Virus record (IMG/VR): IMGVR_UViG_3300042898_000203
Location: 1 to 32,054 of that record
Source: a virus
DNA: 32,054 nucleotides
Strand: one strand, 5' to 3'
The position numbers and the translations under genes are program-made. The notes under the pieces were generated by a model, which was given only the letters and a program-made list of their open reading frames with translations, ran no database searches and was not told the DNA's origin. This document shows positions 4,217 through 32,054 of the stretch, in pieces (the first letter of the stretch is position 1; each line of letters opens with the position of its first letter).

Positions 4217-5307
4217 TGGCGTATAATCTTTTCCCAACATCAGAGCAAGATATTGATTCGGCTCTGAAAGGTCCAAAGCACACCCAAGTGTATCGCGATA
4301 ATTGTAAAGCAGTATTTAATTTTCTGCGTAAAAAATATCCGAAGATCGATACTCCGATTAATATCGATCCCGCTGTACCTAAAATAAATGTCGTCCGTGC
4401 TATAAAAGGTTCTCTTACCGAGCAGCAAATCTTAACTCAGTCTGGAGTTAAGCAACCATTTAAAGTAAAATTTGGAGACGGTTCCTCTGGCAACAGAGGT
4501 GCTAAAAATCGCGGCAATGCTTTCGAAGATCAATTTACCCAAGCATTAACCGACTGGCGCAGTGATCCCGAGTCTGCTGGTATGGATAGAATGATCCTAG
4601 AAGCCATCCAAGGTCTAGATAAAACGTATGGTATTGGACAAGGTTCTGATTTCAAGGTTGATCCAGTTGGTGGCGATAATACCAAAAGACCGTTGTCATT
4701 TATTAGTGGAATTAAATTGACTAATACCAAAGGAGTTGGTAACGATATTGGTGCTGCAGTAACTGATATTACTGTGACGTGGGAAGATAAGAATGCCATT
4801 CCACGGACATTATTTCTCAGTTTGAAATTTGCGAGCACTGTTACGTTCTTTAATGTTGGCGTTCAAACTATTCTTACCAAGAAAGAAATTCAATCAGGTT
4901 CAATTACAAATAAAAATGGTCGGGCACTACTGGATTTATTTAAGATTGACCATCAAAAATTCTGCGATATCTTTAATGGGACTGGTAAGGGTGAAGTTGT
5001 GCCAGTAGTTTCTCCTAATTTACTTGGATTAAAGACTCTACTGGAATCTGGTATTGGGCATGGATACCACGTTATCCATAAATTTCCTGGGAAAATTAAA
5101 TCATATAAAGTCGATGAAATCTATATGCGATCTGCCGCAAATGCTATGTCACAAACTATCTATTATGGTGGTAAAACTGGTAAGGGTAAAAGAATTGATA
5201 TTGTAATTGACAGTCCTAAGTATGAATTCAAATTAAACATACGAGATTCGATGGGGAAAGAAGGGTTTCCAAGTCGTTTGATGTGCGATTTTAAATACAA
5301 GCAGTAA
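4216..5307 (+). CDS. Conserved-looking phage protein of unknown function, possible nuclease fold
   Basis: I do not recognise this 363-residue protein with certainty. It has no signal peptide or membrane helix and mixed charge. The segment RGNAFEDQF near 97-105, the acidic VTDITVTWEDK near 182-192 and LSLKFAS near 200-206 follow one another in the order E...D...(S/E)xK, loosely like the PD-(D/E)xK nuclease superfamily. That reading is weak. It is coupled to Rz by a TAATG overlap and ends just before a late promoter, so it closes the lysis-linked unit. It may be a virion-associated protein instead. Confidence 0.55.
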   Translation: MAYNLFPTSEQDIDSALKGPKHTQVYRDNCKAVFNFLRKKYPKIDTPINIDPAVPKINVVRAIKGSLTEQQILTQSGVKQPFKVKFGDGSSGNRGAKNRGNAFEDQFTQALTDWRSDPESAGMDRMILEAIQGLDKTYGIGQGSDFKVDPVGGDNTKRPLSFISGIKLTNTKGVGNDIGAAVTDITVTWEDKNAIPRTLFLSLKFASTVTFFNVGVQTILTKKEIQSGSITNKNGRALLDLFKIDHQKFCDIFNGTGKGEVVPVVSPNLLGLKTLLESGIGHGYHVIHKFPGKIKSYKVDEIYMRSAANAMSQTIYYGGKTGKGKRIDIVIDSPKYEFKLNIRDSMGKEGFPSRLMCDFKYKQ

Positions 5308-15858: not shown

Positions 15859-15887
15859 TTTACTTCCGCCCCATAATGGGGTATAAC
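15859..15887 (+). promoter_or_regulatory. Sigma70-like promoter before the primase
   Basis: TTTACT at 15859-15864 and TATAAC at 15882-15887 are separated by 17 bases, with GGGG just before the -10 box as at other early promoters here. CCCC at 15869-15872 and GGGG at 15878-15881 can form a small hairpin in the spacer. Transcription would start at about the ATG at 15894, giving a nearly leaderless message. Confidence 0.55.
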
Positions 15888-15893
15888 TATATT

Positions 15894-16925
15894 ATGAGTT
15901 TATATATTGACATCAAGTATCTCCATTCGATTTCATATCGACTAGAGAATTTCAAGAAGAAAACCCAAGATCTATTCAACTGCAGATGTCCAATCTGCGG
16001 CGACTCACAACGTAATAAGAGGAAGGCACGAGGATACTTCTATCGTGGTAAGAACGATCTGTATTACAAGTGCCATAAGTGTGGCGCGAGTCAACACTTT
16101 GGAACATTCCTCAAGAACTTTGATGCCACCCTCTACAGTCAATATGTCGTAGAACGATATGCAGATGGTGCTCACAACAAGACTTCTCATAAAACTGTAG
16201 AATCAGTTCTAAAGTTTGAAGAACCAAAGTTTACTAAGAAACCAGAACCTAAACTGCTCGACTCGATTATGGATCGACTTGATACGCTACCAGATGATCA
16301 TGAGGTAATTCAATATGTTACTGACCGCAAAATTCCTCGCGATGCTTTTGATAGGTTGTATTTCATTCCTAATGTTAAAGATGTCATACAGCTTAATGAC
16401 AAATATAAAAACTCGATCATTACATCTGAACCGAGACTCGCGATTCCTTTTTTTGATGGCGCTGGTAAACTCCTTGTTGTTAGCCTTCGCGGAATCAGAG
16501 GCGAGTCATTACGTTATATTAACATTAAGGTAGACGAAGATGCACCATCGATTTTCGGTCTGGATAGGGTCGATCCTACAAAAGAAATACTTGTTGTCGA
16601 AGGGCCCCTTGACTCCCTTTTTCTGGATAATTCTATCGCTTGTGCTGGAACGTCATTCGGAAAAATCGACCAACTTCCGTTACAAAAAGAAAAAATAACA
16701 ATTATTTTTGATAATCAACCAAAAAACCGAGAAGTCGGTAAGTTAATGAATAAGTATATTGATATGGGGTATAAGATGGTCATTTGGCCAGATGTTCCAG
16801 GAAAAGATATTAATGAAATGATTGAAAATGGATTGACTTCTGGTGAAATCCAGAGTATTATAAATGATAATACGTTTCAAGGACTATCAGCAAAGGCAAA
16901 GTATATGATGTGGAGGAAAGTATGA
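15894..16925 (+). CDS. 61: DNA primase, T4 gp61 type
   Basis: The 343-residue protein matches T4 gp61 (342 residues), which makes RNA primers for the lagging strand with the gp41 helicase. The N-terminal zinc ribbon is complete: C32-P-I-C35 and C60-H-K-C63. The TOPRIM catalytic fold is marked by the glutamate in VVEGPLDSLFLD near 233-244, then IIFDNQ near 266 and a WPDVPGKDINE segment that supplies the metal-binding aspartates. The start at 15894 (MSLYIDIKYL) is preferred over the ATG at 15876, which lies inside the promoter. The stop overlaps the next start (ATGA). An early promoter directly upstream fits replication timing. Confidence 0.9.
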   Translation: MSLYIDIKYLHSISYRLENFKKKTQDLFNCRCPICGDSQRNKRKARGYFYRGKNDLYYKCHKCGASQHFGTFLKNFDATLYSQYVVERYADGAHNKTSHKTVESVLKFEEPKFTKKPEPKLLDSIMDRLDTLPDDHEVIQYVTDRKIPRDAFDRLYFIPNVKDVIQLNDKYKNSIITSEPRLAIPFFDGAGKLLVVSLRGIRGESLRYINIKVDEDAPSIFGLDRVDPTKEILVVEGPLDSLFLDNSIACAGTSFGKIDQLPLQKEKITIIFDNQPKNREVGKLMNKYIDMGYKMVIWPDVPGKDINEMIENGLTSGEIQSIINDNTFQGLSAKAKYMMWRKV

Positions 16926-28873: not shown

Positions 28874-29284
28874 ATGGGGAAAATTCTTGAACACAAGCAT
28901 CTGATTATCAGAGCGCAATTAAACAATCCGCCGAAGTGCGCAGAAGCAATTCAGGATTGGATGAAAACACTGGTTTCCAAAATTGGTATGAAAATACTGA
29001 TGGGACCATATGCGATCTACTCGGATATGGAAGGTAATCGTGGGTTGACTGCAGTTACCATTATTGAAACGAGTCACATTGCTATGCATGTATGGGATGA
29101 AGTCGAACCTGCATTGATGCAACTTGATGTCTATACGTGTTCAACCCTGAATACGAAGGATGTCTTCCAGGCGTTACAGGAATTTGACCCAAATCATGTT
29201 GAGTTTAAATACATTGATCGTGAGCATGATCTGACATTGATTGATAAAGGCATTGTAAATGAGGTTCTACCTCTTTCAACATAA
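28874..29284 (+). CDS. speD: S-adenosylmethionine decarboxylase proenzyme
   Basis: The 136-residue protein matches the small bacterial/archaeal SpeD, a pyruvoyl enzyme that makes decarboxylated SAM for spermidine synthesis. Key residues: Ser67 (future pyruvoyl), His68 and His72 in TSHIAMH, and Cys89 in DVYTCS. The residue before the processing serine is Thr66, where most bacterial enzymes have Glu (ESHIS), so cleavage would be Thr-Ser. Spermidine could neutralise packaged phage DNA. It has a late promoter and overlaps the next gene by 26 bases. Confidence 0.85.
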   Translation: MGKILEHKHLIIRAQLNNPPKCAEAIQDWMKTLVSKIGMKILMGPYAIYSDMEGNRGLTAVTIIETSHIAMHVWDEVEPALMQLDVYTCSTLNTKDVFQALQEFDPNHVEFKYIDREHDLTLIDKGIVNEVLPLST

Positions 29285-29753
29285 GACGGAACTGTGGATC
29301 GTAAAAGATCCAACCATCGTTCCAAAACCTCGCGAATTGATTCTGCAAACGACCAACATCGAACTAATTCGCGCTACTGCATCCAAACAGCAAAAGATCT
29401 CTAAAGTTGTTGACAAGGTAACTCGTCAACGCAATAAATGGCATACTCCAGAAGGCAGGGAAAAAATTGCCGAGGCAAAGATGGGTGATAAAAACCCAAA
29501 TGCCAAGGGATTGTCAGATGAGCATCGGTCAAAGATCAGTAGGACGATGAAGGGAACTCGTCGTGGTGAGAACAATCCGATGTATAATCGGAGACACTCA
29601 TACGAGACTCGACGCAAGATGAGTCTTATGCAAAGTATGCGTGTGCGAAGGTGGTGTGTTGAACCAAGCGGTAAGACGCATCTGGTTGACCCACGGTCTT
29701 TCAGTCTACCGAGTGGATGGTTCTGGGGAAGAAATTACGACCCATACAAATAA
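29259..29753 (+). CDS. NUMOD3-containing DNA-binding protein
   Basis: The 164-residue protein has two NUMOD3-type modules of homing nucleases: KMGDKNPNAKGLSDEHRSKIS near 74-94 and GENNPMYNRRHSYETRRKMS near 103-122, each G-x-x-N-P followed by a short basic helix. An N-terminal domain (LWIVKDPTIVPKPRELILQT) and a C-terminal WCVEPSGKTHLVDP domain flank them. No nuclease active site (GIY-YIG or HNH) is seen, so it is either a free DNA-binding protein or the remnant of a homing endonuclease. It starts inside the end of speD. Its last codons (DPYK and stop) recall those of the sulfotransferase (NPYK and stop). Confidence 0.75.
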   Translation: MRFYLFQHKTELWIVKDPTIVPKPRELILQTTNIELIRATASKQQKISKVVDKVTRQRNKWHTPEGREKIAEAKMGDKNPNAKGLSDEHRSKISRTMKGTRRGENNPMYNRRHSYETRRKMSLMQSMRVRRWCVEPSGKTHLVDPRSFSLPSGWFWGRNYDPYK

Positions 29754-29767
29754 ATCATAAAAAAGAC

Positions 29768-29796
29768 TTGACTTTATCTTAAATAAAGCGTATATT
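29768..29796 (+). promoter_or_regulatory. Sigma70-like early promoter before the GapR-like gene
   Basis: TTGACT at 29768-29773 and TATATT at 29791-29796 with 17 bases between. The 56 bases from the -10 box to the ATG at 29853 hold the leader; no strong hairpin is evident there. Confidence 0.85.
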
Positions 29797-29852
29797 GGGT
29801 TTCTAAGTTACGTTGCCGCCATCGGGCATCCATTTTAACAAGAAAGTTTATT

Positions 29853-30089
29853 ATGACAGATATTATTGCAGTTGACAAACTTCGCCTTTTCATTGAGCGC
29901 ATCGAACGTATCGAAGCAGATCTTGATGCTAGGAAGGCAGACCGTAAGGAAGTCTATTCCGAGTTGAAGGGTGACGGTTTCGACACCAAGGCAACTCGCC
30001 AGATTATTCGCCTCCGTAAGAAGGAAGCGCATATTCGACAGGAAGAGGATATGATTCTTGAGACATATCGTACTGCGATTGGTCTTTGA
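29853..30089 (+). CDS. GapR-like (DUF2312/UPF0335) nucleoid-associated protein
   Basis: The 78-residue protein closely follows the DUF2312 pattern: LRLFIERIERIEADLDARKAD, then EVYSELKGDGFDTKATRQII, then RLRKKEAHIRQEEDMILETY and a short Ala-Ile-Gly-Leu end. GapR of Caulobacter forms a helical clamp around overtwisted DNA and aids replication and gyrase action. The family is characteristic of Alphaproteobacteria, which is the best host clue in the window. A phage copy under an early promoter could reorganise host or phage DNA. It lies directly before the tRNA array. Confidence 0.85.
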   Translation: MTDIIAVDKLRLFIERIERIEADLDARKADRKEVYSELKGDGFDTKATRQIIRLRKKEAHIRQEEDMILETYRTAIGL

Positions 30090-30095
30090 AATTTA

Positions 30096-30183
<88 letters not shown>

Positions 30184-30188
30184 ATTAT

Positions 30189-30264
30189 AGACGAGTAGCT
30201 CAATGGTTAGAGCCGACCGCTCATAACGGTTTGGTTGGGGGTTCGAGTCCCTCCTTGTCTACCA
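30189..30264 (+). tRNA. tRNA with CAU anticodon (Met or Ile2)
   Basis: The acceptor AGACGAG pairs with CTTGTCT (one G-U), discriminator A, encoded CCA. The anticodon loop CTCATAA gives CAU. The A1-U72 pair argues against an initiator. A lysidine-modified Ile (AUA) tRNA is common in phages, so elongator Met versus Ile2 is not settled here. Confidence 0.9.
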
Positions 30265-30269
30265 GTTTC

Positions 30270-30345
30270 GGGTTCTTAGCTCAGTCGGTAGAGCAACTGA
30301 CTTTTAATCAGTAGGTCGCTGGTTCGAACCCAGCAGAACCCACCA
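30270..30345 (+). tRNA. tRNA-Lys (anticodon UUU)
   Basis: GGGTTCT pairs with AGAACCC; anticodon arm ACTGA-CTTTTAA-TCAGT reads UUU; T arm CTGG-TTCGAAC-CCAG; discriminator A and encoded CCA. All arms are intact. Confidence 0.95.
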
Positions 30346-30347
30346 AT

Positions 30348-30406
30348 AAGGGGTTGCTACCTAATAAGCACGCGAGGGATCACGGTTAGCCCCTCAACCT
30401 TTTTTT
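30348..30406 (+). terminator. Structured terminator or short RNA after tRNA-Lys
   Basis: AAGGGGTTG at 30348-30356 can pair with CAACCTTTT at 30395-30403 (two G-U pairs), and inside it GCTACC at 30356-30361 with GGTTAGC at 30384-30390 (one bulged T). The 3' arm merges into seven T (30400-30406). It probably ends the tRNA transcript; the complex loop leaves room for a stable RNA of about 60 nt. Confidence 0.5.
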
Positions 30407-30422
30407 AACCAAGGAAAATATT

Positions 30423-30623
30423 ATGAATATCAAGACTTTTATGGCACTCGCAGTTGTAGCACTCACTGCTGCATGTTCTCCTGCTGCAGAACCACAATCG
30501 GCAGCAGAAGCTGCTGGTCCAGCGGCAGACGAAGCACTTGCTACTGCTAATGCTGCTGCGACTGAAGCAAAGAATGCTGATGTGACTGCACCAGAATTAT
30601 CACGAATGTCAGATTCGCGATAA
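30423..30623 (+). CDS. Small lipoprotein within the tRNA array
   Basis: The 66-residue product has a signal peptide (NIKTFMALAVVALTAAC) with lipobox LTAAC, so Cys19 should be lipidated and the mature 48 residues anchored in a membrane facing the periplasm. The mature part is almost only Ala, Glu, Pro, Asp and Thr, with no fold visible. AAGGA precedes the ATG. It lacks the Pro-rich core of an o-spanin. Phage lipoproteins of this type may block receptors or superinfection; that is a precedent, not evidence. The tRNA-Cys gene begins four bases after the stop. Confidence 0.7.
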   Translation: MNIKTFMALAVVALTAACSPAAEPQSAAEAAGPAADEALATANAAATEAKNADVTAPELSRMSDSR

Positions 30624-30627
30624 TTAT

Positions 30628-30705
30628 GTGACGGTGGCAGAGCGGACCAATGCAACGGATTGCAAATCCGTAAAACCGTGGGTTCGAATCCCACCCGTCA
30701 CTCCA
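30628..30705 (+). tRNA. tRNA-Cys (anticodon GCA)
   Basis: GTGACGG pairs with CCGTCAC; anticodon arm ACGGA-TTGCAAA-TCCGT reads GCA; discriminator U, as expected for Cys identity; CCA is encoded. Confidence 0.93.
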
Positions 30706-30708
30706 ACT

Positions 30709-30749
30709 AATTCCCGATACTTTTACTTTTCGAAAGTATTGGGAATTTT
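30709..30749 (+). terminator. Long hairpin between tRNA-Cys and tRNA-Leu
   Basis: A 15-bp stem (30709-30723 with 30733-30747, one G-U pair, nine-base loop) is followed by a short T-run (30746-30749). It fits an intrinsic terminator, or a processing barrier separating two tRNAs. It is nearly symmetric, so it could act in both directions. Confidence 0.65.
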
Positions 30750-30750
30750 A

Positions 30751-30832
30751 GGGCACGTGGCGAAATGGTAAACGCACGAGACTTAAAATCTCGCACTTCG
30801 GTTTGTTGGTTCGAGTCCGACCGTGCCCACCA
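30751..30832 (+). tRNA. tRNA-Leu (anticodon UAA)
   Basis: GGGCACG pairs with CGTGCCC; anticodon arm CGAGA-CTTAAAA-TCTCG reads UAA; a variable arm with a TTCG turn follows; discriminator A and encoded CCA. Seven T (30833-30839) come directly after the CCA and may end transcription. Confidence 0.93.
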
Positions 30833-30860
30833 TTTTTTTCAAATAATCTAAAATTAGGGC

Positions 30861-30889
30861 TTGACTTTTATCACATTATAGGGTATATT
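30861..30889 (+). promoter_or_regulatory. Sigma70-like early promoter inside the tRNA array
   Basis: TTGACT at 30861-30866 and TATATT at 30884-30889, spacing 17, with GGG before the -10 box. It restarts transcription for the gene at 30921 and the following tRNAs. Confidence 0.85.
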
Positions 30890-30920
30890 GGAATATAAGA
30901 TGTGAAAAGGAACTTTGATT

Positions 30921-31319
30921 ATGTTTACTCTTTCTGATATTGATGCCCAGTTTCCTAAAACTCATGATGGTTCGGTTTTCTCCGACCTTCATAAGGATGT
31001 GTACGGGTTTCGCCCTCGTGGCGTTACCTTCGAGTCTCTCGAAGACTTCGACGCTGAATATGAGCGTCTGGTAGTCCGTCTTGGCGAACAGCAGGACGAA
31101 GAAAAGATCGCTCAGGATCGTAACTTCGCCGAGTTCGTTTGCCGTGTGGACGGTATCATGGGTTTGGTCAAGAACTGCTTTGATAATGCGGCAGCAGTCG
31201 CCATTATCGCTGAGGCAGAAGGCATTAATGATGAAGAAATGCGCTTCTATGGTTGGGAATCTCTTGAGTATCGTCTCGATCTCAAGTTTGGTTCTATCAA
31301 GAAGTGGTTGGAAGAATAA
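30921..31319 (+). CDS. Conserved phage protein of unknown function
   Basis: The 132-residue acidic protein starts at the ATG at 30921, with AAGGA at a suitable distance; an upstream in-frame TTG is unlikely. The segment FSDLHKDVYGFRPRGV near 21-36 recurs in unrelated phages as I remember it, usually among small early genes. The remainder is helical and acidic. No catalytic motif is seen. It has its own early promoter and is followed by tRNA-Thr, so it shares a transcript with tRNAs. Confidence 0.65.
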   Translation: MFTLSDIDAQFPKTHDGSVFSDLHKDVYGFRPRGVTFESLEDFDAEYERLVVRLGEQQDEEKIAQDRNFAEFVCRVDGIMGLVKNCFDNAAAVAIIAEAEGINDEEMRFYGWESLEYRLDLKFGSIKKWLEE

Positions 31320-31329
31320 ATAAGTTTTC

Positions 31330-31405
<76 letters not shown>

Positions 31406-31406
31406 T

Positions 31407-31482
31407 TCCGCGATAGCTCAGTTGGTAGAGCGTCTGACTGTTAATCAGAATGTCCTTGGTTCGAGTCCAAGTCGTGGAGCCA
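31407..31482 (+). tRNA. tRNA-Asn (anticodon GUU)
   Basis: TCCGCGA pairs with TCGTGGA; anticodon arm TCTGA-CTGTTAA-TCAGA reads GUU; U1-A72 with discriminator G fits Asn identity; CCA is encoded. It lies one base after tRNA-Thr. Confidence 0.95.
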
Positions 31483-31510
31483 GTTTATAGTTTTGTAACA
31501 AGGATATAGT

Positions 31511-31780
31511 ATGACTAATATTTCGACTCCGTTTAGTAAGTTTGATAATCTCCGTTTTGCAGAGAATAGGTTGGTATCTCTTAAGATGTATAGTCCTGAG
31601 AGTTCTGAGACTAAGCGACATAATTTTATTGTGAAAGATCTTCAGTCTAAATTGACTGCCACTGAATTGTCTGAATATTATGACAACAAGAATCTAGTAT
31701 TGACAGCGGCAGATCGTGAAAAAGAACGAATCGCGATGATCAAGCAAATGAATGAAAATCGAGATAAACCAAGTATTTAA
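31511..31780 (+). CDS. Small protein of unknown function
   Basis: The 89-residue product is hydrophilic and mostly helical (FDNLRFAENRLVSLKMYS, ADREKERIAMIKQMNEN). AAGGATA lies before the ATG. No family is recognised. It sits between tRNA-Asn and tRNA-Ala and probably shares their transcript. Confidence 0.6.
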   Translation: MTNISTPFSKFDNLRFAENRLVSLKMYSPESSETKRHNFIVKDLQSKLTATELSEYYDNKNLVLTAADREKERIAMIKQMNENRDKPSI

Positions 31781-31786
31781 AAGTTT

Positions 31787-31862
31787 GGGGAATTAGCTCA
31801 TTCGGTAGAGCGTCTGCCTTGCACGCAGAAGGTGAACGGTTCGATCCCGTTATTCTCCACCA
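31787..31862 (+). tRNA. tRNA-Ala (anticodon UGC)
   Basis: GGGGAAT pairs with ATTCTCC (one G-U); anticodon arm TCTGC-CTTGCAC-GCAGA reads UGC; discriminator A and encoded CCA. The acceptor has G3-U70, the classic alanine identity pair. Confidence 0.95.
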
Positions 31863-31867
31863 ATATA

Positions 31868-31979
31868 GACCACCTATGCTGAACCCGTGAAGGGATAGAA
31901 AACACGGTTGCAACCGTATTGTTTATCTGGGAAGATTGCAACGTCGCGAAGTAAGCAATCAAGGCACACTTAGGTGGTC
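31868..31979 (+). ncRNA. Candidate stable structured RNA between tRNA-Ala and tRNA-Leu
   Basis: This gene-free interval is closed by a perfect 9-bp stem: GACCACCTA at 31868-31876 with TAGGTGGTC at 31971-31979. Inside, CCGTG at 31885-31889 pairs with CACGG at 31903-31907, the palindrome ACGGTTGCAACCGT at 31904-31917 offers an alternative fold, and GATTGC at 31934-31939 pairs with GCAATC at 31954-31959. It has no start codon with ribosome-binding site, and no T or anticodon arm. T4 encodes two stable RNAs (C and D) beside its tRNAs, so a similar stable RNA is plausible here. Confidence 0.6.
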
Positions 31980-31989
31980 ACTCTTTTAT

Positions 31990-32054
31990 GCGCCTATGGT
32001 GGAATTGGTAGACACGCTGGTTTTAGGTACCAGTGCGAAAGCGTGGGGGTTCGA
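31990..32054 (+). tRNA. tRNA-Leu (anticodon UAG), cut by the window end
   Basis: The acceptor begins GCGCCTA; D arm and anticodon arm CTGGT-TTTAGGT-ACCAG give UAG; a long variable arm (TGCGAAAGCG) follows; the sequence ends in the T loop (GGGGTTCGA). The 3' acceptor strand lies outside the window. Confidence 0.85.

Follow-up and report, generated by a model that had tools for sequence, protein, structure and literature searches.

A small structured non-coding RNA of 112 nt, whose family is not in Rfam, lies in the tRNA array of T4-like phages of uncultured aquatic bacteria. In this covarying RNA family, the tips of the two arms carry palindromes, which have been maintained independently of each other. 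Judging from sequence comparison, we give somewhat better than an even chance to the explanation that the RNA is made with the tRNAs and would self-associate through these tips, arm A with arm A and arm B with arm B.

The element and its genomic setting

The DNA analysed (the window) is a stretch of 32,054 nucleotides from an IMG/VR virus record, the final 2 kb of which are taken up by a tRNA array belonging to a T4-like phage. At 15876-16925 it encodes a DNA primase whose nearest counterparts, at 38-42% identity, are those of Pelagibacter phage Mosig, Methylophilales phage Melnitz and cyanophages. The original prediction had described a structured RNA closed by a perfect 9-bp stem, with internal stems, occupying a gene-free interval between two tRNAs, and this description has been borne out. 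No ORF of at least 60 aa lies over 31868-31979, so that the element does not qualify as protein-coding; it starts 5 nt 3' of a tRNA-Ala(UGC), and a tRNA-Leu begins 10 nt 3' of its end. The minimum free energy (MFE) of the 112 nt is -36.1 kcal/mol, compared with a mean of -25.7 in 200 dinucleotide shuffles (z -2.8), an equally low energy being reached by 3 of the 200. The internal stems form two arms on the closing stem, and the parts of the RNA are as follows:

31868-31979, plus strand: whole RNA element; fold z -2.8, 37 distinct relatives, family-model score 120.6 bits (by construction)
31868-31876, plus strand: closing stem P1, 5' strand GACCACCUA; pair probability 0.96-1.00, both-side changes in relatives at 4 of the 8 pairs counted
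31971-31979, plus strand: closing stem P1, 3' strand UAGGUGGUC; same basis as the 5' strand
31877-31880, plus strand: P1b, 5' strand UGCU, partner GGCA at 31963-31966; G-C becomes A-U in L043, and the first pair is absent from 6 sequences
31879-31885, plus strand: core strand CUGAACC; invariant in A1, its conservation being ascertained through the search patterns
31884-31931, plus strand: arm A, with a CCC...GGG base and a variable cassette hairpin; three types, absent in L257
31908-31913, plus strand: apical palindrome of arm A, UUGCAA; UCGCGA, UUCGAA and UACGUA also in relatives
31929-31934, plus strand: inter-arm core strand GGGAAG; conserved in A1, first G replaced by A in L226-L228
31934-31960, plus strand: arm B, GAUUGC...GCAAUC; outer stem in 11 different compensated versions
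31944-31949, plus strand: apical palindrome of arm B, UCGCGA; UCCGGA, CUGCAG, GCCGGC and CCCGGG in relatives, CCCGGA in one
31961-31970, plus strand: 3' core strand AAGGCACACU; nearly invariant in A1, ascertained through the search patterns
31787-31862, plus strand: tRNA-Ala(UGC), upstream neighbour at 5 nt; same neighbour in 51 of 59 copies
31990-32054, plus strand: tRNA-Leu, downstream neighbour, cut by the window end; complete as tRNA-Leu(tag) in the near-identical relative L006

As had been anticipated for tmRNA, 6S RNA, RNase P and known ribozymes, no known family accounts for the element. At the gathering threshold of Rfam 15, tRNA is the sole family matching the window, and at E<=10 the element itself has no match, GOLLD, ROOL, OLE and pRNA included; neither ARAGORN nor Rfam identifies it as a tRNA or tmRNA. 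A likeness to 5S rRNA in length and closing helix was dropped, since Rfam gives no match at E<=10. In the literature searched, outside which most subscription papers and preprints lie, no description of this RNA was found.

Two further parts of the original prediction fared less well. The complementarity proposed to underlie two competing folds, between CCGTG (31885-31889) and CACGG (31903-31907), is present, but the competing helix has a probability of 0.0, is 6.5 kcal/mol worse and is kept by one of 37 relatives. A riboswitch or any two-state switch needs two conserved, mutually exclusive helices, and this interpretation was abandoned. The analogy with the stable RNAs C and D of T4 stands as far as position is concerned, these being likewise non-coding RNAs of no known function within a T4-like tRNA cluster. 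Common membership was rejected, however: the family model finds nothing in the rnaC/rnaD stretch (L181) at E<=5, and the best match in the whole T4 genome is weak (105641-105726, E 0.44) and falls outside that stretch.

Relatives, position and covariation

In IMG/VR uncultured viral contigs, 59 copies were found, corresponding to 37 distinct sequences. They were collected by exact-pattern scans with the core motifs (CUGAACC, GGGAAGA and TCAAGG.ACACT), widened stepwise, and then filtered for at least 7 of 8 closing-stem pairs; the conservation of the core strands and of the closing stem is thus partly built in. The loops and arms, as well as the type of each closing-stem pair, lay outside the patterns that yielded most copies, and the arm B loop was included in one pattern only. 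The 50,697 cultured-phage records contained no copies, and blastn gave no relatives of substance either there or among 72,556 plasmids. Two pattern matches in prokaryote genome contigs (L267 and L268), which have neither the family core nor the arm layout, were discarded as chance. Whole-record searches of 14 viral records showed one full-length copy in each, with a single extra weak match beside the full copy in the L126 record (G005:C1:44081-44225, 18.9 bits, E 0.009).

tRNA-Ala(UGC) lies next to the element on its upstream side in 51 of the 59 copies, and the gap to the upstream tRNA measures 5 nt in 43 copies and 6 nt in six more (49/59). Downstream, the next tRNA, mostly tRNA-Leu(UAG) or tRNA-Phe(GAA), follows after 4-14 nt in 50 of the 53 copies that have one in reach. 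This fixed spacing points to a single transcript with the tRNAs and to excision by the same machinery; the RNA is thus probably transcribed with the array and then cut out of it.

The structure was assigned by hand and counted on a MAFFT alignment of 35 sequences, arm B being parsed by script. The RNAalifold consensus from the raw alignment was poor, as MAFFT misplaces the gaps of arm B and mixes the types of arm A, and it was rejected. The 34 proposed pairs are standard in 93.6% of cases, against 33-42% when the partner is slid; 80 cells are changed on both sides, against 21 in shuffles, and 16 pairs show such changes in this alignment. The covariation score reaches 0.272, compared with 0.137 in shuffles and 0.05-0.07 in the slid versions. 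Thus, among other variants, the closing stem GACCACCU/AGGUGGUC becomes GGCUUCCU/AGGAAGCC, and the 11 compensated versions of the arm B outer stem include GAUUGC/GCAAUC, GAUACA/UGUAUC and GAUCGAA/UUCGAUC. Because the 37 distinct relatives retain the closing stem through both-side changes, the fold is not a product of chance; with this stem conserved and no known family matched, the two findings that could have overturned the proposed RNA did not arise.

Arm A exists in three types, and type III has an extra small hairpin, in most cases with a GNRA tetraloop (GUAA, GCAA, GAAA or GGAA) at its tip. Arm A cassettes that are identical or nearly so (near-identical in L013, L059, L091 and L206; in L183, L189 and L204) are joined to differing versions of arm B and of the closing stem, so that the arms recombine as modules within a 112-nt RNA. 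In L257, arm A has been lost.

Palindromic tips and the case for self-association

The apical hexamer of arm A is palindromic in all 36 distinct elements that have this arm: UUGCAA (31), UCGCGA (2), UUCGAA (2) and UACGUA (1). In arm B it is palindromic in 36 of 37, with UCCGGA (27), UCGCGA (5), CUGCAG (2), GCCGGC (1) and CCCGGG (1); the exception, CCCGGA (1), retains the palindromic CCGG. Control hairpins with 6-bp stems from the same contigs have a palindromic central tetramer in 162 of 2,923 cases (5.5%), at similar rates for loops of 4, 6 and 8 nt (55/1003, 54/982 and 53/938, respectively). The five derived central tetramers (CGCG, UCGA and ACGU in arm A; CGCG and UGCA in arm B) are all palindromic, for which the expectation at 5.5% each is about 5e-7 if they are independent, something that is not fully known; in arm A UUGCAA dominates, and its three derived palindromes occur in five distinct elements that are not all independent. 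In the MFE folds, 32 of the 36 arm A elements have the hexamer centred on their apical loop; in type II (L013, L059, L091 and L206) UUGCAA does not form the apical loop, and for arm B of L057 a 3-nt loop is obtained.

In both arms the central dinucleotide swaps between GC and CG. Adjacent bases cannot pair within one chain, so that this switch argues for pairing between molecules, and the same reasoning has been applied to the intermolecular symmetric kissing loops of OLE and GOLLD (PMC12286853). Furthermore, the loop type of A does not track that of B, the two being freely combined across elements, and a single heterotypic contact between A and B is therefore unsupported. In the self-association that we favour, a three-way core (CUGAACC / GGGAAG / CAAGGCACACU) on the 9-bp closing stem would carry the two arms, and the 6-nt palindrome of each tip would find a pairing partner only in the corresponding loop of a different copy. 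The two different two-fold kissing contacts, A-A and B-B, could then produce dimers, chains or closed rings, and the assembly might serve phage translation or tRNA biology during infection. As in ROOL and GOLLD, rings or shells can be closed by monomers with two different two-fold contacts. Counting against self-association are the folds of type II arm A, the existence of L257 without this arm, the weakness of the UUGCAA self-duplex (-4.5 kcal/mol) and the fact that UUGCAA also complements 5-6 nt of the tRNA-Ala(UGC) anticodon loop in most copies.

This last property underlies a quite unlikely alternative, in which arm A forms a kissing contact with the anticodon loop of the tRNA-Ala(UGC) next to it and the RNA acts as a tRNA sensor, chaperone or decoy. 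The frequent presence of that tRNA upstream agrees with it. Nevertheless, five distinct elements (L054, L055, L057, L058 and L186) retain tRNA-Ala(UGC) while their loops (UCGCGA, UUCGAA and UACGUA) fit it by just 2-3 nt and remain palindromes, and L001, L002, L019, L122 and L216 carry UUGCAA with no tRNA-Ala in the fetched flank; moreover, arm B is left unexplained. The five deviating elements weaken the kiss as sole explanation, and it may be an additional contact in the majority (UUGCAA) type. A stable monomer that binds a protein or the ribosome, with palindromes that are of little importance or recognised by a dimeric protein, is unlikely but deserves more credit: the invariant core strands resemble a binding site, L257 persists without arm A, and palindromes alone do not prove dimers. 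A protein site would be expected to conserve sequence, however, whereas two separate loops change theirs and keep self-complementarity.

It is very unlikely that the element merely serves the processing, spacing or attenuation of the tRNA transcript and is functionless once excised. The fixed spacing to the tRNAs on both sides would fit such a role, as would a weak terminator-like match at 31904-31917, but for a spacer or a processing hairpin there is no need of a core that is invariant, of two arms that covary and of palindromic tips that can be swapped. As for attenuation, the three terminator-like matches found are within expectation (shuffled mean 2.0), and the tail ATTGTTTATC has no clean T run. 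Finally, the cassette-like swaps of arms between lineages show that recombination is active here, which is in keeping with a palindromic site at the DNA level (protein binding, recombination or cruciform) and an incidental RNA fold; the G-U pairs, the covarying closing stem and the GNRA-capped hairpin of type III indicate RNA instead, and make this explanation barely credible.

Among known systems, the closest parallel to the self-association proposed here is offered by ROOL and GOLLD, non-coding phage and prophage RNAs with no known function, often encoded close to tRNA islands, which form homo-oligomers with symmetric kissing loops, as seen by cryo-EM and with palindrome switching as evidence (PMC12286853). 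The element is likewise phage-borne, adjoins tRNAs and has symmetric loop palindromes that covary between copies. In contrast, both RNAs greatly exceed the 112 nt of the element (GOLLD is often longer than 800 nt), there is no sequence or Rfam match, and the oligomer is predicted here, where those of ROOL and GOLLD have been solved. OLE RNA dimerizes via a symmetric kissing loop with a palindromic tetranucleotide and switches between palindromes (PMC12286853). The loop palindromes of the element also switch identity, but OLE is an RNA of about 600 nt from Gram-positive bacteria, with protein partners, and its Rfam model does not match the element. The pRNA of phi29, also from a phage, is about as long as the element and likewise has two arms and a closing helix. 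It assembles into a ring through loop-loop contacts (PMC7357161); these pair two different loops (AACC/GGUU) head to tail, whereas each loop of the element would pair with itself, and again no Rfam match exists. A 6-nt palindromic loop, like those of the element, also self-pairs in the HIV-1 DIS and in oskar (PMC7357161), although there it forms one contact, within a genomic RNA or an mRNA of unrelated structure.

In nature, RNA homo-oligomers are rare; those known from phages, ROOL and GOLLD, are large RNAs without known function. If self-association is correct, the present family, roughly one-seventh the size of GOLLD, located in the same kind of genomic surroundings and with two swappable palindromic tips, would suggest that tRNA-carrying phages resort to self-assembling RNA as a recurring strategy. 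That this 112-nt RNA, with two orthogonal self-complementary tips, is the smallest known natural RNA-only assembly, forming closed rings or cages from phage tRNA operons and having evolved independently of ROOL and GOLLD, is a tentative idea that we think rather doubtful. The size of the RNA is suited to synthesis, mutagenesis, NMR, SAXS and crystallography, making the function of phage RNA assemblies easier to test.

Other features of the array and the phage genome

The tRNA array contains several additional features. Between tRNA-Cys and tRNA-Leu, a very stable hairpin (30706-30748, z -6.9), followed by a short T run only, is possibly a terminator or a processing element. Promoter-like sites are abundant in 29700-32054 (17 versus 3.9 expected), two of them being near-identical (29768-29796 and 30861-30889, TTGACT-17-TATATT), and are probably phage promoters. 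A 66-aa ORF inside the array (30423-30623) has a lipoprotein-like signal sequence and gave no match in a Pfam search, and a NUMOD3 protein with a homing-endonuclease-type motif (29259-29753, 3e-13) adjoins the array.

Elsewhere in the window, a ferritin-like, Dps-type protein is encoded amid phage genes (8147-8584, Pfam Ferritin, 8e-23), and an S-adenosylmethionine decarboxylase (28874-29284, Pfam AdoMet_dc, 1e-14) represents an auxiliary gene that also occurs in cyanophages. Finally, the array of the relative L057 includes a tRNA with anticodon CUA (4739-4812), called tRNA-Pyl by ARAGORN, which is a possible amber suppressor.
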